Part shown: positions 7,510-62,561 of the stretch, piece after piece
Numbering within the stretch: position 1 is the first letter of the stretch
Layout: each line of letters starts with the position of its first letter
Source of the DNA: Thermosipho africanus Ob7
GTDB taxonomy: Bacteria; Thermotogota; Thermotogae; Thermotogales; Fervidobacteriaceae
Length of the DNA stretch: 64,000 nucleotides
Reading direction: 5' to 3'
Assembly (NCBI RefSeq): GCF_003351105.1
Contig: NZ_NKRG01000001.1
Coordinates: 186,001 to 250,000, forward strand
Notes under the pieces: generated by a model
Database searches by the model: none
What the model was told of the DNA's origin: nothing
Seen by the model: only the letters and a program-made list of their open reading frames with translations
Made by a program: the position numbers and the translations under genes

Positions 7510-9217
7510 GTATCTTAAAAAGTATACGTTTTTGATAATTTTAGCAATTACTTTTGTCGTTATTCAGGCCATTTTAAATCTTTACTTGCCTGATTTAATG
7601 GGTGATATTGTTAACAAAGGTGTAAGTCGTGGTAATGTGGATTATATTTTAAGTGTTGGTTGGAAAATGCTTTTTGTAACTCTTTTAAATGTTGCCGCAG
7701 CAATTGTTTCAACTTATTTTGCTGCAAAGGTTGCTATGGGATTTGGAAAAGATTTAAGAAGTCATGTCTACAAAAAAGTTATGAATTTTTCACTGAACGA
7801 AGTTGATAAGTATGGAGTGGCAACACTTATTAACAGAAATACAAATGATATTACACAGATTCAAAATGTTATATTTATGATGCTTCGTATGGTTGCATTG
7901 GCTCCTGTTATGGCTATTGGTGGAACAATAATGGCTATTTCAAAGAGTCCTAAATTGACTATGGTTTTGTTGGTATCTTTGCCGATTATGTTTGTTGTTA
8001 TGTATTTTATAGTAAAGTACAGTATGCCTCTTTTTAAGTCTATGCAAAAAAAATTGGATAATTTAAACAGAGTTTTGAGAGAAAATTTAACTGGTGTTAG
8101 GGTTATAAGAGCATTTGCAAAAACAGAATATGAAAAAAAGAGATTTGAGGTTGCAAATGAAGATTTAACGAGTACAGCGTTGAAGGTAAATAGAATTTTT
8201 GCATTGGTTTTCCCACTAATTCTTTTAATAATGAATTTTACTATTATCTTTTTGATTTGGATTGGTGCAATTCAGATAGATAAAGGAACTCTTGAAGTTG
8301 GAACTATGATGGCTGTAATGCAATATATAATGCAGATTATGTTCTCATTTATAATGATTTCAGTTGTGTTTATATTCTTGCCAAGGGCCTCAGCCTCTGC
8401 TGAAAGGGTAGCCCAAGTTTTAAATGAAAAAGAAAGAATAAAAGATGTTAAATCTCCTAAGAAACTGGAAGGTATGGGAAAAGTAGAATTTAAAAATGTC
8501 ACTTTTTATTATGAAGGTGGTAAAGAACCTGCTATAGAAAATGCTAATTTTGAGATTAATCCTGGAGAGGTTGTAGGAATTATTGGTAGTTCAGGTTCAG
8601 GAAAAAGTACTTTAGTAAAGCTTTTGATGAGGTTTTATGATGTAACAAGTGGTGAAATTTTAATTGATGGTGTTAATATAAAAGAGCTTTCTCAAAAAGA
8701 TTTACGTGATATGATTTCATTTACTCCTTCAAGACCTGTTATATTTTCAGGTACTATAGAGGAAAATGTAAGGATTGGAAAAGAAGATGCAACTGAAGAA
8801 GAAATAGTTGAGGCTTTAAAGACCGCACAGGCTTGGGAATTTGTATCAAAGCTTCCTGAAGGTATTAAAACTCAAGTTTCTCAGGGTGGAACAAATCTTT
8901 CTGGAGGTCAAAAGCAAAGGCTGGCAATCGCTCGTGGAATTGTAGGGAAGAGAAAAATTTATATATTTGATGATAGTTTTTCGGCGCTTGACTTTAAAAC
9001 CGATGCAAAGCTTAGAAAAGAACTTAGAGAAAAGTTAAAAGATGCAACTAAAATAATTGTATCTTTGAGAGTAGCAACTGTTATGAATGCAGATAAAATA
9101 ATAGTGCTTGATAAAGGAAGGGTTGTTGGAATAGGAACGCACAAAAAGTTAATGAAATCATGTGAAGTGTATAGAGAAATAGTTTCTTCTCAGCTTTCAG
9201 AGGAGGAGATAGCATGA
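7493..9217 (+). CDS. Heterodimeric ABC exporter subunit with degenerate ATP site (TM287-like)
   Basis: A 574-residue half-transporter: six membrane helices in the first ~310 residues, then a nucleotide-binding domain. Walker A is GSSGSGKST and the signature is LSGGQKQR. Walker B ends IFDDSFSALD, with Asp where the catalytic Glu normally sits. The switch-loop His is replaced (SLRVATVMNAD). This asymmetry is typical of TM287 of Thermotoga maritima, whose partner carries the working site. It overlaps the next gene by four bases, and together they form the exporter. The substrate is unknown, possibly drugs. Confidence 0.92.
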   Translation: MKGVVKYLKKYTFLIILAITFVVIQAILNLYLPDLMGDIVNKGVSRGNVDYILSVGWKMLFVTLLNVAAAIVSTYFAAKVAMGFGKDLRSHVYKKVMNFSLNEVDKYGVATLINRNTNDITQIQNVIFMMLRMVALAPVMAIGGTIMAISKSPKLTMVLLVSLPIMFVVMYFIVKYSMPLFKSMQKKLDNLNRVLRENLTGVRVIRAFAKTEYEKKRFEVANEDLTSTALKVNRIFALVFPLILLIMNFTIIFLIWIGAIQIDKGTLEVGTMMAVMQYIMQIMFSFIMISVVFIFLPRASASAERVAQVLNEKERIKDVKSPKKLEGMGKVEFKNVTFYYEGGKEPAIENANFEINPGEVVGIIGSSGSGKSTLVKLLMRFYDVTSGEILIDGVNIKELSQKDLRDMISFTPSRPVIFSGTIEENVRIGKEDATEEEIVEALKTAQAWEFVSKLPEGIKTQVSQGGTNLSGGQKQRLAIARGIVGKRKIYIFDDSFSALDFKTDAKLRKELREKLKDATKIIVSLRVATVMNADKIIVLDKGRVVGIGTHKKLMKSCEVYREIVSSQLSEEEIA

Positions 9218-54425: not shown

Positions 54426-55594
54426 GTTTAGAATCTACCTATGAGGAATGAAAACACGTTCGGTATTGGTTCAACATTTATTTCGTCAATTGTTGCGTTT
54501 AGAATCTACCTATGAGGAATGAAAACAGGACCTTTCCAGAATTTTTTATTTGCTTCGTGTAAAAGAAAAAAGTTTAGAATCTACCTATGAGGAATGAAAA
54601 CGGTCAATCACAAGTTCTTCTTTTTGAAGTTCTGCTGTAACGCGCTGTTTAGAATCTACCTATGAGGAATGAAAACGGTTTTATTTTCTTGTATTGCACG
54701 TTTCCTTCCAGCGTTTAGAATCTACCTATGAGGAATGAAAACACACCTGAAAGCGCGGCACTGAAAAAAAACCGTGCTTTCTTTTGTTGTTTAGAATCTA
54801 CCTATGAGGAATGAAAACTGTTCCAGAGATCTACTTTTTCTTTGTAAAGTTGTTTTGTAGCCAGTTTAGAATCTACCTATGAGGAATGAAAACTTTAATC
54901 TGATAATTTTTTATTTTGTTATGTATCTTTAGTTTAGAATCTACCTATGAGGAATGAAAACTTTATATACATAAGGACACATAAGATAGGTATTAATACG
55001 AGTTTAGAATCTACCTATGAGGAATGAAAACGTTGCGATAAATAACCTTCCCATCAGGGGTTGTGGAAAGGTTTAGAATCTACCTATGAGGAATGAAAAC
55101 ATATTTTTTAGCAAGTTCTTTTGCTTTGTTGTTTGATATTTTAGGTTTAGAATCTACCTATGAGGAATGAAAACTAATAATCGTACCATCGCGTTTGCTA
55201 GTACTGTTGTTGCGTTTAGAATCTACCTATGAGGAATGAAAACATATAAATTCTTTTTCTATTCCTTCCAATCTAAATTTCGTTTAGAATCTACCTATGA
55301 GGAATGAAAACGAGTATATTCGCTGCTTTTCCAAGCTCACGCAATTTTTCTTGTTTAGAATCTACCTATGAGGAATGAAAACTTGTATTGGGCAACAATT
55401 ACAACATCATCCGGTTGTAAATCCAAGTTTAGAATCTACCTATGAGGAATGAAAACATTTCAAATATGTCGTCGGTGTCTAAATCAATAATTTTTTCCGT
55501 TTAGAATCTACCTATGAGGAATGAAAACTATGATCCGTGTACAACAATGCATATTGAAAATAATGTTTAGAATCTACCTATGAGGAATGAAAAC
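54426..55594 (+). CRISPR. CRISPR array 2: 17 repeats, 16 spacers
   Basis: A 30-bp repeat reading GTTTAGAATCTACC...GAGGAATGAAAAC on the plus strand, all 17 copies apparently identical, with spacers of roughly 35-46 bases. The leader is on the left and a hairpin terminator lies beyond the right end. It is about 600 bases upstream of cas2-cas1-cas2. Several spacers translate as open protein on the minus strand, so the crRNAs would be antisense to those messages. Confidence 0.98.
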
Positions 55595-55710
55595 TGTATT
55601 ATTTATTTAAAAAATATAGTTTTATATTTAGAACTTATTTGAAAAAATATAAGAAGATTATTAATAAATCATGATTTAACAAATTGATATGGATAAATTA
55701 TATTTTTTAA

Positions 55711-56206: not shown

Positions 56207-56228
56207 AAAGTTTTAAGAGGTGATTTTT

Positions 56229-56492
56229 TTGTATTTGATAATGATTTACGATGTAAATAAAAAGAGAGTTGGAAAAGTTTTAAAAGTAGCAAGAAAGTAT
56301 TTAAAATGGGTTCAAAATTCAGTGTTAGAAGGTAAAATAACTAAGAGTAATTTTGAAACGTTAAGGAATCAAATTTTAAGTATAATAGATGAAGATGAAG
56401 ACACTATTTATTGGTATATATTAGAACCGGAGTTTGTACCATATAGAAAAATTTATGGGAACAAAAAAATTAATGTAACAAATATAATTTAA
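56229..56492 (+). CDS. cas2: Cas2 (first copy)
   Basis: About 87 residues from a TTG start at 56229 behind AAGAGGTGA. The opening LIMIYDVNKKRVGKVLKVARKYLKWVQNSVLEG is the Cas2 beta-1/alpha-1 core with the conserved Asp. Cas2 dimers bridge two Cas1 dimers during spacer capture. It lies 14 bases before cas1, and a second cas2 follows cas1. Confidence 0.92.
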   Translation: MYLIMIYDVNKKRVGKVLKVARKYLKWVQNSVLEGKITKSNFETLRNQILSIIDEDEDTIYWYILEPEFVPYRKIYGNKKINVTNII

Positions 56493-56506: not shown

Positions 56507-57490
56507 ATGGAAACCTTATATATTTTTACTGATGGGGAACTAAAAAGAAAAAACCACGCGTTATACTTTGTTCCAAAAAGCAAAGATTCAAATCCATTTT
56601 TTGTTCCATTAAAAAATATTTCTTCAATTATGATTTTTTCAGAGGTAAGTTTTAATAAAAAATTTTTGGGTTTGTTAGCGAAAGAAGGTATACCTACCTT
56701 TTTTTATGGTTATTATGGGGATTTTATTGGTTCTTTTTATCCACCAGAGAACAATAAAACTGGAGAGATGATAGTTTTGCAGTTTCAATATTATTATGAT
56801 TTAAGTAAAAGGCTTGAAATTGCAAAAGAAATATTAGAATCTGCAGTTTTGAATATGCTTTGGGTGCTGAATGGATATAAAGAAGTTACTAATGAAGAGT
56901 TAAATTATATAGTAAAGATTAAGGATAGTTTGAAAAAGCAAAATAATATACCAGCCTTAATGGCCATAGAAGGAAATATTAGAAAGGCTTATTATAAAGC
57001 TTTAGGGAAAATTGTAAAGCGTAAAGGATTTGATTTTGACGAAAGACTAAAAAGACCTCCAAAAGATGAAATAAATGCACTTATAAGCTTTGGAAATATA
57101 ATACTTTATAATACAGTTTTAGCCGAGATATATAAAACTTCTTTAGAGCCAAGAATAAGTTTTTTGCATGAAACAAATAAGCGTAAATTTTCTTTACAAC
57201 TTGATATTGCAGAGATTTTTAAACCAATAATTGTGGATAAAGCAATTTTGAAATTAGTGAATAAAAAAGAAATTAAAAAAGAAGACTTTAATTTTAACAA
57301 CAATGGGGTATTTTTATATGAAGATGCAAAGAAAAAATTTATAAATGAAATTGAGGAGAGATTAAATAAGAAAGTTACAATTTATGAAAATCAAAATGTA
57401 ACTTTTAAAACAGTAATAAGGCATGAATGTTATAAATTGATCAGACATTTAAAAGGAGTTGAAAAATTTAAGGGATTTGTGATGGGGTGA
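56507..57490 (+). CDS. cas1: Cas1 integrase
   Basis: A 327-residue integrase that inserts spacers at the leader end. The N-terminal beta domain starts METLYIFTDGELKRKNHALYF. Catalytic residues are Glu155 (AIEGNIRKAYY), His221 (SFLHETNKRKF) and Glu236 (LDIAEIFKP), all present, so the enzyme looks active. AATGGAGG precedes the ATG, and it overlaps the second cas2 frame. Confidence 0.95.
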   Translation: METLYIFTDGELKRKNHALYFVPKSKDSNPFFVPLKNISSIMIFSEVSFNKKFLGLLAKEGIPTFFYGYYGDFIGSFYPPENNKTGEMIVLQFQYYYDLSKRLEIAKEILESAVLNMLWVLNGYKEVTNEELNYIVKIKDSLKKQNNIPALMAIEGNIRKAYYKALGKIVKRKGFDFDERLKRPPKDEINALISFGNIILYNTVLAEIYKTSLEPRISFLHETNKRKFSLQLDIAEIFKPIIVDKAILKLVNKKEIKKEDFNFNNNGVFLYEDAKKKFINEIEERLNKKVTIYENQNVTFKTVIRHECYKLIRHLKGVEKFKGFVMG

Positions 57491-57495
57491 TTTAT

Positions 57496-57765
57496 TTGAA
57501 GTATCTTTTGCTTGTTTATGATGTAAATGAAAAAAGAGTGAACAAAATACATAGAATTTTAAAAAAATACCTTGTTTGGCAGCAAAATTCAACTTTTGAA
57601 GGGTATTTATCTCAATCAAATATTAAAAAATTGTTCTATGAAGTTAAAAATAAAATTAATGAAGAAGAGGATAGTGTTGTAGTCTATTTTTTTAATTCAA
57701 ATAAGGTTTTTAGAAAAGTTATTGATGGAAAGGATAAGTGTATATTTAATAATAAGTTTATCTAA
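57496..57765 (+). CDS. cas2: Cas2 (second copy)
   Basis: About 89 residues from a TTG at 57496, behind GGGGTGA at the cas1 end. LLLVYDVNEKRVNKIHRILKKYLVWQQNSTFEGYLS matches Cas2 and clearly resembles the first copy (same YDVN..RV...KYL.W.QNS.EG pattern), but it has diverged. Two cas2 genes flanking one cas1 is uncommon. Which copy works with Cas1 cannot be told. Confidence 0.9.
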   Translation: MKYLLLVYDVNEKRVNKIHRILKKYLVWQQNSTFEGYLSQSNIKKLFYEVKNKINEEEDSVVVYFFNSNKVFRKVIDGKDKCIFNNKFI

Positions 57766-57779
57766 AAACAAAAATATGT

Positions 57780-57785
57780 TATAAT
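57780..57785 (+). promoter_or_regulatory. Possible -10 box of the signalling operon
   Basis: TATAAT 39 bases before the TTG at 57819, in the 53-base gap after the second cas2. The -35 is weak (TTTATC near 57757). It would let the MazF-like/sigma/Lon genes be transcribed separately from cas1-cas2. Confidence 0.4.
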
Positions 57786-57818
57786 AAATGTAAATGGAGG
57801 TGGAAGGAGGAAAAATAA

Positions 57819-58232
57819 TTGAAACAATTGATTGATGCAATTTTTCAGAAAGAACTGGGGGATTTTAAATCTTTGATAGGTTATGTATATAGATTAAAAG
57901 AAATTTCAAAAATTTTGGGTTTTGATACATTGTATAAATCAAGAAGTACAGAAAGAGAAAGAAGGCCAGCTATTGTTGAGGACAATGGAAAAAATAGTTT
58001 AAAAATTTTGTTTTTATCAACTAAAAGTTATTCAAGAATAAAAGTAGATATAAATAAGTTTTGTGTAATCAGTGAAGATTTTGAATGTGCTGAATTGGTA
58101 TTAAAATCATCATATGCATTCAATTACCATAAAAAATTAGTGTTTAAGCTTCCAAGAAAAGTTATTGAGGAAAGTTTTGTAAAATGTGGTTTATGTAGAA
58201 AAAATATAAAAAATTTTATTGAGGTGATATAA
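57819..58232 (+). CDS. Small MazF/PemK-like protein with a CxxC motif
   Basis: A 137-residue protein with TTG start behind GGAAGGAGG. Residues 40-105 (RERRPAIVEDNG, then ILFLSTKSYSRIKVDI) resemble the RPxxVV strand and following strands of MazF/PemK toxins. The end holds FVKCGLCRKNI (CxxC). It is the first gene of the sigma/Lon unit and starts just two bases before that of the next gene ends its spacer. It could be a second target or partner of the protease, or a toxin. The MazF resemblance is my reading, not a search result. Confidence 0.45.
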   Translation: MKQLIDAIFQKELGDFKSLIGYVYRLKEISKILGFDTLYKSRSTERERRPAIVEDNGKNSLKILFLSTKSYSRIKVDINKFCVISEDFECAELVLKSSYAFNYHKKLVFKLPRKVIEESFVKCGLCRKNIKNFIEVI

Positions 58233-58234
58233 AG

Positions 58235-58910
58235 GTGAAAGAGATTATATTAAAGTACTTGAATAATAAGTTTGAAGAAGAAGAGGAAAATAAATTGTAT
58301 CTTTTAATAAAAAAAAATTGTAACTATAATAATTGGCACTCATTCTAATTATAAAGATACATTGATTGATATATATGGAACTTATGATTCGGCTGTTAAT
58401 GAAATTATAAACGAAATATTTATAAAAATAAAAAATAAAAAAGAGATTTTGATGTCAATAATAAACAATATTGAAAACATTGAAAGTTATATTTCAAGGA
58501 TGATTTTAAATCATATTATCGACATTGTAAAGAGCTATAAATCTAAACTTTCTTTGAATAAAGAAGATGATGACGGGAACGAAAAGATAGATGTGATAAA
58601 TATTGCTGAATTTGATGATTTAAAATCTGAAATTATTGCAGAGTATTTTGTTGAAGAGTTAAAATCTTTAGATAATATGCAACTTTGTTATTATTTTTAC
58701 AAGGTTCTCTACAATGAAGAAATATTCTATAGTGAAAAATCAAAGGATGCAAAGTATAAAATGGTTCAAAGATTAAAAGAAAAACTGAGGAATTTAGTAG
58801 AAGATTTTGGAATAGATCAAAAAGAATTTGCAATAGCAGTGAAAATCTATATGTCAGAAATTTGTGATAAGATTCGTCATAATAATAGAGAAGAAAAAAA
58901 TAAAAAGTAG
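58235..58910 (+). pseudogene. ECF-type sigma factor (CalpS-like), frame broken at A9
   Basis: The first frame (GTG 58235 behind GAGGTGA) runs to TAA at 58346; the second is open to 58910. A run of nine A (58309-58317) joins them: losing one A gives LYLLIKKIVTIIIGTHSNY and a ~225-residue protein. The join has region 2-like helices (DSAVNEIINEIFIKIKN, ENIESYISRMILNHIIDIVKSY) and a region 4-like C-terminal half (KMVQRLKEKLRNLVEDFGI). Order beside a MazF-like protein and a Lon-SAVED protease fits CalpS. Slippage expression, a base error, or true inactivation are all possible. Confidence 0.7.
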
Positions 58911-58919
58911 GAGGTTACT

Positions 58920-59684
58920 ATGAGCTTTTTAAAGAAAGAATTTGAATTGTATAAAAATTTATTTGGAAAATATAAATTAAATATTGAATCCCTAAAGATA
59001 GTGCCTGAAGGAAAAGCCTTGGAGGCAGGAGATGTTTTTGTAATCTATGGTGATATTTTAGTGTATGGAGTTGTTATTGAAAAAAATGGGGATTTAGCTG
59101 AATGCGTTTTGCTTTCTCAAGATGTTTTTTTAAGTAGCTCAAAAGCTTTAAAAATAAAAATAAATCATTTAGTTGATTATGTTTACGTGACACACGTAAA
59201 TTTTTATATTGAAGATAATTTTGCAAAAAATTATTGTCAAGTCATTATAAATGTAAAAGAAGATATCAACAAAATTGCTGAAAATGTTGAAGAATTAGAA
59301 GAACAAATCTATACAGGTCCAAGAAAAGAATATTTTGATCTATTGATCGACCAAATATCTTTATTGTACGATATTTTCTTTGAGAAGATTTTTGATGAGA
59401 CCAAAGAAGAAGACAAAATAATAGAAATAAATATTCCATACGCTAGTGAATTTGCGTTAGTTGCAGGGACAAATAGTTTAAGAGGGGAAAATTTTGTTGG
59501 TATTGTTGAAAACAATACCCTAAAAGTTTATTTGCAAGATAACGCTATTGGTAAAAAAGGAAAGTTGATTTTTAAAAACCAGGTTATCTATGAAGGAGAA
59601 CTGCCAAATGCCTTTGTGTCAAATAATATAAAAGTATCAGTTGAAGATTTAAAAAAATTTTTAGTTATTGAGGTGATTGATTGA
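58920..59684 (+). CDS. CalpT-like sigma-sequestering protein (MazF-like fold), candidate protease target
   Basis: A 254-residue protein, ATG behind AGGAGG. Residues 28-110 (LEAGDVFVIYGDILVYGVVIEKNG, VFLSSSKALKIKINHLVDYVYV) look like the SH3-type barrel of MazF. A helical linker (NKIAENVEELEEQI, residues 115-165) and a beta-rich C-terminal domain (residues 175-254) follow. In CRISPR-Lon systems the MazF homologue CalpT binds the sigma factor and is cut by the Lon protease; size and position between sigma and Lon genes fit. Sequence resemblance alone is weak; context carries the call. Confidence 0.55.
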   Translation: MSFLKKEFELYKNLFGKYKLNIESLKIVPEGKALEAGDVFVIYGDILVYGVVIEKNGDLAECVLLSQDVFLSSSKALKIKINHLVDYVYVTHVNFYIEDNFAKNYCQVIINVKEDINKIAENVEELEEQIYTGPRKEYFDLLIDQISLLYDIFFEKIFDETKEEDKIIEINIPYASEFALVAGTNSLRGENFVGIVENNTLKVYLQDNAIGKKGKLIFKNQVIYEGELPNAFVSNNIKVSVEDLKKFLVIEVID

Positions 59685-61123
59685 TGTTTTCAAGGCTGTT
59701 GAGTTCAAATTCTTCTGATTTTTTAAAAATCTTGGAGCGTGACGACATTACAGTAAAGGAAGCAATTGAGTCTTTTATAAATGCGGAAGACTTTGATAAT
59801 GAATTTCTTGTTTTTTATGAGATAGTAAAAAAAATTAAAGAAAAAAAGATTGTTGATTTAAATCAAGAATTATTAAAAAAATTCTTTAATGGAGAAGAAG
59901 AAATAATATTTGATATTTACAAAAACGATTTTGTTGAAGTTTTTTTCCCTACAGTAAACAAACTTGGAAACGGAAAAATTGCCAGAGCAATTATTTTTGA
60001 ATCAAAAAAAAGTTTTACAAATAATCCAGACTTGAAAAGTTCACTTGAGAAAATTGAAAGTCTTGTTGGTAAAAAACTTATTGTAATATTTGACAGTGAA
60101 TTTAAGGGTAATTCTTTTGAGCTTGCTGTAGCTATTGGTTCATTATGTAAAAAAATTCCTAAAAATATAGCATTTACTGGAGAAATTGATGAAAAAGGGA
60201 ATATCAAGAGAAATATTGAATATTTAGATTTAAAAATGAAAATTTGTAGTGAAAATAATTTAAAACTAATAAGTGCTTTTGATGTGGATAATGTATTTGA
60301 ACTTAAGGAATTTTTTGAAGCAAAGAAAATACATATACCAATACTAATTTCGTTAATGGCAAAAGATAAAGAATATATTAGAACTTCATATGAAGAATTA
60401 AAAGAGGCAGTTAACGAAAAATTTGAAATAAAATACAGTGATATTTTTGAAAAAATTTACGATGTAAATAAAGTTTTTGTCAAAGATAGCTTGAATGATG
60501 ATTGGGGACAAGTTTTAAAAGAAGTAAATAGCTTGCTTTACAAAATTATATCAAATAGAGGTATCCCCCATATTGCAATAATGGGGCCTGCATCATTTTC
60601 TATGGCTTTAGGTATAGCTTTAGGTGTTCAAAATCCGTTAGTTGTTTATCACAAAGCAGGAATTGAATATAAGCCTGTTATTGATCTGACTGACAATGTT
60701 AGAAAGGTAAAGAACATAGTAAATGATTATAAATTTGTAAAGTATTCAGTGGAAAATGAAAATGGTAAAAATTGTGCATTTATATTGTATTTTGCTTCTC
60801 ACAATCCATATGATGCAGTTAAAAACTTTTTAAGCAAAAATAATATTGATTCAAAATTGGTATTAATTGAACCAAATTTTGGAAAAGGGAATTTACCCGC
60901 AGAAGATTGGAGTGAAATTGTTTCAGAAATAATGTCTATTACTCAGAACATACAATTTAAACATTCTTGTGAAAACGTCTTTTTCTTTATGAGTTGTCCG
61001 GTTCCATTAGCTTTTGGAGTAGGGCTTTCATTTGGAGATTTTGCAAAGGGTTCAATATTCCACTTTGATAAAAATACGGGTGATTATATTGAGGTATTTA
61101 AAATAGAAAAAATTAGGGGGTAA
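59684..61123 (+). CDS. Lon protease-SAVED fusion (CalpL-like), cyclic-oligoadenylate-activated protease
   Basis: About 479 residues. The middle (95-225) is a Lon proteolytic domain: Ser144 in KGNSFELAVAIG, TGEIDEKGNI at 165-174, and Lys184 in YLDLKMK, giving the Ser-Lys dyad about 40 residues apart. The last ~230 residues are a SAVED domain with two related halves (HIAIMGPASFSMALGIALG near 296; VFFFMSCPVPLAFGVGLSFG near 432). SAVED binds cyclic oligonucleotides made by Cas10. No AAA+ domain is present. ATG at 59684 is preferred over the adjacent TTG because AGGTGA lies 8 bases before. Confidence 0.82.
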   Translation: MFSRLLSSNSSDFLKILERDDITVKEAIESFINAEDFDNEFLVFYEIVKKIKEKKIVDLNQELLKKFFNGEEEIIFDIYKNDFVEVFFPTVNKLGNGKIARAIIFESKKSFTNNPDLKSSLEKIESLVGKKLIVIFDSEFKGNSFELAVAIGSLCKKIPKNIAFTGEIDEKGNIKRNIEYLDLKMKICSENNLKLISAFDVDNVFELKEFFEAKKIHIPILISLMAKDKEYIRTSYEELKEAVNEKFEIKYSDIFEKIYDVNKVFVKDSLNDDWGQVLKEVNSLLYKIISNRGIPHIAIMGPASFSMALGIALGVQNPLVVYHKAGIEYKPVIDLTDNVRKVKNIVNDYKFVKYSVENENGKNCAFILYFASHNPYDAVKNFLSKNNIDSKLVLIEPNFGKGNLPAEDWSEIVSEIMSITQNIQFKHSCENVFFFMSCPVPLAFGVGLSFGDFAKGSIFHFDKNTGDYIEVFKIEKIRG

Positions 61124-61127
61124 TTTT

Positions 61128-62561
61128 ATGAAGTTATTTTTTTCCACCTTTGGAAAGATTAGTAATTATAAAGAAGTTGAATATTCTATTGATTACAACG
61201 AAAACACATTTGTAAGTCCGTTTTTACCAGATTTAATGTACAAAGCTTTTGGGGTTGATACTACAGAGCTTTTTTTACTAGATACTTTGGTAGAAAAAAA
61301 TGATTTATAAAAAGAAGATTTTAAATACGAAGACATTATTACTAGTCTGGAAAATAAGTATTCTGATTATTTTAAAAGTAAAGATTATAAAGGAAATTTA
61401 AATTTACATATTATTCCTGGTGTTGGAAGTTATAAAGAATTTAGATTTGTTGGAAACATGAATGATACATATTATATGACGTTAATTCAGCTTTTGAATA
61501 TTTTTTCAAGACCAGAAGTAATTAATTCTGAAGAAATTGAAGTGATATTTGATATTAGTTTTGGTATTAATTATCAATCTAATGTTTTATATAGAACGTT
61601 AATGGATATTTTACCAATATTGGCGTATTTCAAAAAGGTACGTTTTAAACTTACAAATGCAGAGCCTGTAATTAACACTTCAGCAGAGGGAAAAAATAAA
61701 ATTAATGTTTATGTTGTTGAAGAAAAAGTATTTGAACAGTCTATATCTTATAAAAAAGATTTTGCTAAAAAAACTATTAATGTTTTTAGAGGTTTGTCTG
61801 TTAATGAAAGAAAAGAAGTTGGGAAAAATTATATTGGAGAATTTGAAAAAAGATTAAGAAATGAAAAAAATATGGGTTTGAATGATATTTTTTTAAATTT
61901 AGAATTATATTTAAAGTCTATTTATTACGGTCTTCCTCTTTTATATTTATATACAATGAATAGAGTTGATTTTAAATATGTAGTTGATAAATCATTAGAA
62001 GTGTATAATTCATCAATTGAAATTAGAGATAGTGATGAAAAATTAAAAATGGTACTTAGGAAGTTAGAATTTTCAGAAGGTATAAAATATTTGGTGCTTG
62101 GCAGTATATTTAAGATTTACTTTGAAAATATTTATGGAACAAAATACTGTACTGAAATACCATATGATGAACTAAAGAAATTGTCAAATTTTATATGGAA
62201 AATTGATGAGTTTAAAAATCAAATTTCATTGGTTCTTGAAAAAGAGATTAAAGAGATTGAAAGTTTGTTTGATTATATAGAAGAAGGAGAAGAAATACTT
62301 TTTGATTTAGAGATTCTCAAATCAAGGAAAAATGAAAGTATAGAAGGCGAAGAAAAGGTTGAAAATACAAAAAAAGAACTAGAACCTGAAAATGATGAAT
62401 TAAAAAAACAAAATAGTAAAGAAAATTTCTCAAGAGAAGAAAGAAACTTTGTTGCTCATGGTAGTTTATCTAAAAACACTTTTTATTTGAAAAAGTATAA
62501 TTCAATGGTTTGCATAAGGTTAAATGAAGAAAAAATATGTGAATTAGGAAAAGCAATATAG
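61128..62561 (+). pseudogene. csx1: Csx1 (CARF-HEPN) ribonuclease with an in-frame TAA
   Basis: One frame runs from ATG 61128 to 62561 but has TAA at 61308-61310 (codon 61); reading through gives ~477 residues. The CARF half has LHIIPGVGSY and the Csx1-type IFDISFGINYQSNVLYRTL. The HEPN half ends with the RNase motif RNFVAHG (62442-62462; RX4H). Csx1 degrades RNA when bound to cyclic oligoadenylate. The rest is free of stops, so the change is recent, strain-specific, or an error. Restart at the ATG 61458 would lose the first CARF strands. Confidence 0.82.

Follow-up and report, generated by a model that had tools for sequence, protein, structure and literature searches.

The Calp system has been described as tripartite (PMC11417357). 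cA4 activates the protease CalpL, CalpL cuts the anti-sigma factor CalpT, and the sigma factor CalpS is freed (PMC11417357, PMC12751052). CalpT is a MazF-like protein that serves for binding rather than for cutting (PMC9704534, PMC11417357). We analysed a window of 64,000 nucleotides from Thermosipho africanus Ob7. Its type III CRISPR locus contains the same Lon-SAVED protease, CalpT and CalpS as the Calp loci of Sulfurihydrogenibium and Ca. Cloacimonas acidaminovorans. Unlike the system as published, the unit in the window is headed by a fourth gene, here called X137, and the Ca. Cloacimonas genome (G242) lacks it. A preliminary description of this DNA had regarded the gene as an addition to the described CRISPR-Lon operon, and it indeed falls outside the CalpL/CalpT/CalpS description (PMC11417357). 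Overall, X137 is a real, previously uncharacterised fourth Calp gene that probably encodes a MazF-like protein.

The type III locus runs in the order array, cas2-like, cas1, cas2, X137, calpS, calpT, calpL, csx1 and cas6 (Table 1), the array lying at about 54427-55595 with at least 17 repeats of 30 nt each. The cas2-like genes at 56220-56492 and 57487-57765 flank cas1, and the same cas2-cas1-cas2 layout was seen in G024, G030, G028 and G023. X137 is the first gene of the unit X137-calpS-calpT-calpL and follows cas2 after a gap of 54 bp. The 254-residue neighbour, earlier taken to be CalpT-like, proved to be CalpT: its family profile (A2) matched the CalpT10 chain 8b0u_D in the PDB with E=7.3e-6, and relatives matched CRISPR-T of PADLOC. 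Relatives of the window CalpL matched CalpL of PADLOC and of PDB structures. The frame of calpS is broken in the window, where the A tract at 58309-58317 is one letter too long (nine A against eight in the sister genome G024). In csx1, an in-frame TAA (61308-61310) lies where the window reads TTATAAAAA and G024 reads TTATTAATA. X137 itself is frameshifted in two other genomes, G025 and G197. These lesions could reflect decay, phase-variable tracts or assembly errors; for the calpS tract, phase variation and assembly error are both possible.

Table 1. Coordinates of X137, its signals and its neighbours in the window, and of stand-alone CalpT10-like domains at other loci.
Feature	Position (strand)	Description	Basis or remark
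X137 gene	57819..58232 (+)	137 aa, TTG start	probably MazF/PemK-like, bearing a four-cysteine site; fourth gene of the Calp unit
Extended -10 promoter element TATGTTATAATA	57775..57786 (+)	ahead of the X137 unit	consensus match only
X137 ribosome-binding site GGAGG	57807..57811 (+)	7 nt upstream of TTG	read in sequence; conserved in G024
calpS	58236..58910 (+)	ECF-like sigma factor gene	frameshifted; intact G024 copy 224 aa
calpT	58920..59684 (+)	anti-sigma factor, 254 aa	profile and PADLOC matches
calpL	59681..61123 (+)	Lon-SAVED protease, 480 aa	SAVED 1.5e-32, ChlI/Lon-like region
csx1 (CARF-HEPN)	61128..62561 (+)	next cas-operon gene	outside the Calp unit proper
Stand-alone CalpT10-like domain	L045:14911-15213 (-)
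Stand-alone CalpT10-like domain	L047:8868-9197 (+)
Stand-alone CalpT10-like domain	L049:7057-7386 (+)
Stand-alone CalpT10-like domain	L043: about 8039-8236 (+)

X137 was confirmed as a real gene with its own predicted promoter, which stands at the head of the operon. The extended -10 element TGTTATAAT (57777-57785) lies 5' of the X137 GGAGG, and TATGTTATAATA has one exact occurrence in the whole window against 0.04 expected. An element of the TGTTATAAT type occupies the equivalent place upstream of X137 in the Thermosipho-like genomes G024, G029, G030, G028 and G023. The G024 copy of the protein shares 91% amino-acid identity with the window copy at a dN/dS of 0.20, which identifies X137 as a protein under purifying selection. 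Between cas2 and X137, the G024 locus has a pair of large ORFs (530 and 661 aa; L037:13241-16853), probably a mobile element, and the X137 promoter has been spared.

X137 is conserved, and its position is invariable. A profile search found relatives in 12 of 103 Thermotogota genomes, each directly 5' of calpS. In a second phylum, where the Calp loci were reached through their CalpL, 6 of 25 genomes carry a relative, one frameshifted and five intact (profile E 3e-6 to 4e-10), all of the intact ones directly before calpS. Altogether, 18 genomes possess X137, and in all 18 the sigma gene follows it directly. For the genomes covered, this answers affirmatively an earlier question, whether the homologues always precede this gene. 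The spacing is at most 7 bp or the genes overlap, and this fits the need of translational coupling. All 12 Thermotogota with X137 fall among the 15 of 103 with calpT (hypergeometric 3e-13, with phylogeny ignored). With the two-phylum profile, about 490 genomes (390 broadly sampled, 103 Thermotogota and 25 of the second phylum, partly overlapping sets) gave no credible relative outside Calp loci. Searches of phage, viral-contig and plasmid collections likewise gave none. A plasmid alignment of 45 residues (E=0.3) was disregarded, and matches in G092 and G093 were rejected, since they lie inside an SNF2-type helicase. A scan of genome contigs with CalpL gave only two named loci, both from Thermosipho MAGs.

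This distribution bears on one reading of the MazF-like features, namely an ordinary type II toxin that resides at the Calp locus by chance and is unrelated to Calp function. Such a resident is strongly disfavoured and very improbable. No antitoxin-like gene adjoins X137, which is the first gene of the unit in its relatives as well, and its position is fixed in two phyla. It was never found outside Calp loci in the genomes searched, whereas PF02452 toxins are present at varied places in 60 of 198 sampled genomes. Upstream there is no antitoxin-like gene; CalpS and CalpT are the only cotranscribed candidates to restrain X137.

Which partner X137 goes with can be read from loci in which the unit is split. 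The g1, g4 and g5 genomes keep the full order X137-calpS-calpT-calpL. In G004 and four g2 genomes (G013-G016), X137-calpS-calpT and calpL-cas1 stand at opposite ends of the cas operon, 9-11 kb apart. Since the trio stays intact at this distance from calpL, X137 belongs with the sigma/anti-sigma pair. The preliminary description had tied the gene to the Lon-SAVED protease, and this needs correction: X137 tracks calpS-calpT more than the protease. Homologues away from Lon-SAVED loci would have weighed against its reading; none was found outside Calp loci, although in these five genomes the protease gene is itself distant. The four g2 (Fervidobacterium-like) genomes also have a stand-alone CalpT10-like domain (Table 1), antisense between cas6 and cas2, in addition to full-length CalpT; as CalpT10 binds CalpL in PDB 8b0u, this domain might act on CalpL as a decoy or a tuner.

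X137 is absent from eight Cloacimonadota Calp loci in which calpS-calpT-calpL is present, and the Thermotogota Calp loci of G009 and G022 likewise have calpS-calpT-calpL without it. Among the loci lacking X137 is that of Ca. Cloacimonas acidaminovorans (G242), whose CalpL is identical to PDB 9eyi. Therefore, X137 is a lineage-specific fourth member rather than a core part, and regulation by CalpT and CalpS can do without it. At the G022 locus (L054, 16661-18981) a second SAVED-containing ORF (264 aa) directly follows calpL and may encode a SAVED ring nuclease in free form. Two Cloacimonadota loci (L114:6460-8199 and L184:4344-6083) have a 579-aa primary-sigma (RpoD-like) gene directly upstream of calpS.

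We then turn to what the protein may be. The motifs named in the preliminary description are present, with RRPAIVEDNG at residues 48-57, STK at 67-69 and CGLC at 123-126. No curated MazF/PemK model passed its cut-off with X137. PF02452 was matched by 1 of 16 members (E=0.063) and NCBIfam by 0 of 16; since the family cut-off of PF02452 was tested and not reached, X137 is not filed as a MazF toxin. Pfam searches gave no accepted match, and a PDB sequence search with the family alignment (A5) gave none. Matches to Curtovirus V2, zf-BED, LNS2 and similar families (E 0.003-0.08) were judged to be chance, and an initial match to phosphoribosyl-AMP cyclohydrolase disappeared once a profile was used.

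Profile-profile comparison points to MazF. X137 aligned by hhalign to a PemK profile built from 23 sequences scored 21.1, and all of 200 column shuffles scored lower (maximum 15.2), with a modest E-value of 0.003-0.007. Of 17 profiles compared with PemK, that of X137 was the closest; the remaining 15 locus families, calpS and calpT were no nearer to PemK. Against CalpT the score was 24.4, above all 200 shuffles (maximum 21.8), direct profile homology between the two being weak and limited to about 20 residues. The CalpS control fell inside the shuffle null. In the PemK alignment the RP strand of X137 lies on that of MazF and S67 on the catalytic Thr, and the full path adds the first and a later strand. 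Like MazF/PemK (PF02452), X137 has the RP strand, a next strand that ends in S/T and the same order of predicted strands and helices. Unlike them, it scores below the cut-offs, has an extra helical region between beta1 and beta2 and a four-cysteine site, and is without an antitoxin gene.

The catalytic pair of MazF is Arg25/Thr48 (Bacillus numbering), and its loss abolishes activity; one M. tuberculosis MazF has Ser instead of the catalytic Thr (PMC7354611). In the weak alignment these positions are occupied by Arg49 and Ser/Thr67, each conserved in 16 of 16 X137 members. CalpT retains the Ser/Thr and has Tyr, Phe or another residue, never Arg (21 of 21), at the Arg position. If the alignment holds, the catalytic Arg and Ser/Thr would thus be retained in all X137 members, with CalpT having lost the Arg. 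R49, P50, F65, F109 and C126 are invariant in the 16 members, and R46 and C82 nearly so.

AlphaFold, given a three-row alignment, modelled the window protein at pLDDT 42, and a PDB fold search with this model returned noise. For the relative L057, a model with pLDDT 74.9 and pTM 0.72 was obtained, with the order beta-helix-beta-beta-beta-beta-helix-beta-helix; it was the one of five models above pLDDT 70. Its best Foldseek match among viral proteins was a PemK/MazF toxin (probability 0.72, E 0.11, TM 0.45 by target), and the viral matches also list a PemK-like protein and an 'endoribonuclease'. A Foldseek search of the PDB yielded nothing at E<=0.001, and the best 50 matches listed did not include a MazF. 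Computation supports a fold of the MazF kind in which the catalytic Arg and Ser/Thr are retained; we consider the fold quite likely, and stop there because just one of the five L057 models was good. The earlier suggestion that the unit holds two MazF-fold proteins gains from the PemK profile and the viral match, without a curated or PDB match to accompany them, and the structure prediction proposed along with it was informative for the relative rather than for the 137-residue product itself.

The PDB result, together with a cluster of cysteines, would also suit a new fold with no relation to MazF and an unrelated role in the Calp complex, for example metal or redox sensing. This we regard as quite improbable, given a PemK signal above all shuffles, the best of 17 profiles and the top viral match. 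At least four cysteines occur in 16 of 16 members, in two arrangements: 12 have CxnC...CGxC, and in the remaining four members the four cysteines are shifted. The CxxC motif of the preliminary description is accordingly real in the window protein, but not universal. The cysteines suggest a metal site; we know of no four-cysteine metal site in MazF toxins. The zinc anti-sigma (ZAS) motif HxxxCxxC occurs in 0 of 16 members. Such a site and the adjoining sigma gene, with no accepted MazF match, have led us to weigh a zinc protein that binds nucleic acid or RNA polymerase and would steer CalpS to its promoters, the RP...FLSTK likeness then being one of barrel architecture alone. We think this unlikely: no helix-turn-helix or zinc-finger family match carries weight (zf-BED at 0.018-0.044 is below cut-off), and MazF/PemK is the best profile as well as the best viral-structure match.

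Because X137 is co-translated, has no antitoxin of its own and always lies beside calpS-calpT, the simplest reading is that it is one more subunit of the CalpS-CalpT complex. We tentatively propose that X137 joins Calp as its fourth subunit and stays bound to CalpS-CalpT as long as CalpL has not cut CalpT. X137 would be a small MazF/PemK-like barrel whose four cysteines bind a metal; coupled translation would produce it along with CalpS, and it would be kept silent in a complex with CalpS-CalpT. After Cas10 makes cA4, CalpL would cut CalpT; CalpS would be free to change transcription, and X137 would be released as a second output, in the simplest case one that binds or cuts RNA. Against a subunit role stand the frameshifted copies in G025 and G197 and the ten Calp loci without the gene.

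Those losses with calpS intact, in G009 and G022 and through the two frameshifts, would be easier to understand if X137 were auxiliary. The MazF-like fold may be catalytically dead, as in CalpT, and X137 could then be a scaffold with no RNA activity, serving CalpS-CalpT as a co-inhibitor, as a chaperone or in assembly, which would tighten sequestration of the sigma factor or protect CalpS before CalpT binds. The strict coupling to the calpS start and the fact that X137 never occurs without calpT agree with this, and CalpT itself is MazF-like and binds rather than cuts (PMC9704534, PMC11417357). Nevertheless, both residues of the MazF pair, Arg and Ser/Thr, are present in every member, something that a pure scaffold could do without, and we hold the scaffold to be a serious yet doubtful possibility. 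Further in the opposite direction, cutting of CalpT might set X137 free as an active MazF-like RNase along with the sigma factor, and the dead-MazF CalpT would have evolved to restrain a live partner; we consider this two-output form rather unlikely.

With regard to known families, the PADLOC model C3a162 (PDLC01080, 'unknown function') matched 4 of 16 X137 members. With most of the model covered, its best match was the second-phylum member L125 (5.6e-6), and L123, from the same phylum, followed at 0.0086; the window X137 was not matched. This suggests that the family has already been catalogued near type III loci, in a model that gives neither a function nor a link to Calp. The novelty claimed in the preliminary description stands as far as the Calp description is concerned, but the family has been met before, C3a162 being a weak match to its distant members.

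In the current account, Calp has a single protease with a single pair of anti-sigma and sigma factors. X137, co-translated and retained in two phyla, is a direct candidate for a missing output or a missing regulator. Since this conserved gene of heat-loving bacteria resembles, distantly, an RNA-cutting toxin, the response of Calp to viruses may include a further output. The subunit that we tentatively favour also has a testable parallel. At type III-E loci, Csx30 (the anti-sigma factor), RpoE and the conserved Csx31 have been reported as one complex (PMC10028731, PMC11106740). Like X137, Csx31 of the type III-E Craspase loci is conserved and accompanies, as a third partner, an ECF sigma factor and an anti-sigma factor that a protease cleaves (PMC10028731, PMC11106740). 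The type III-E system differs from Calp in its protease, TPR-CHAT, and its anti-sigma factor, Csx30, and X137 and Csx31 are likened by role alone. If the parallel is true, two unrelated CRISPR proteases share a layout of sigma factor, anti-sigma factor and third protein.
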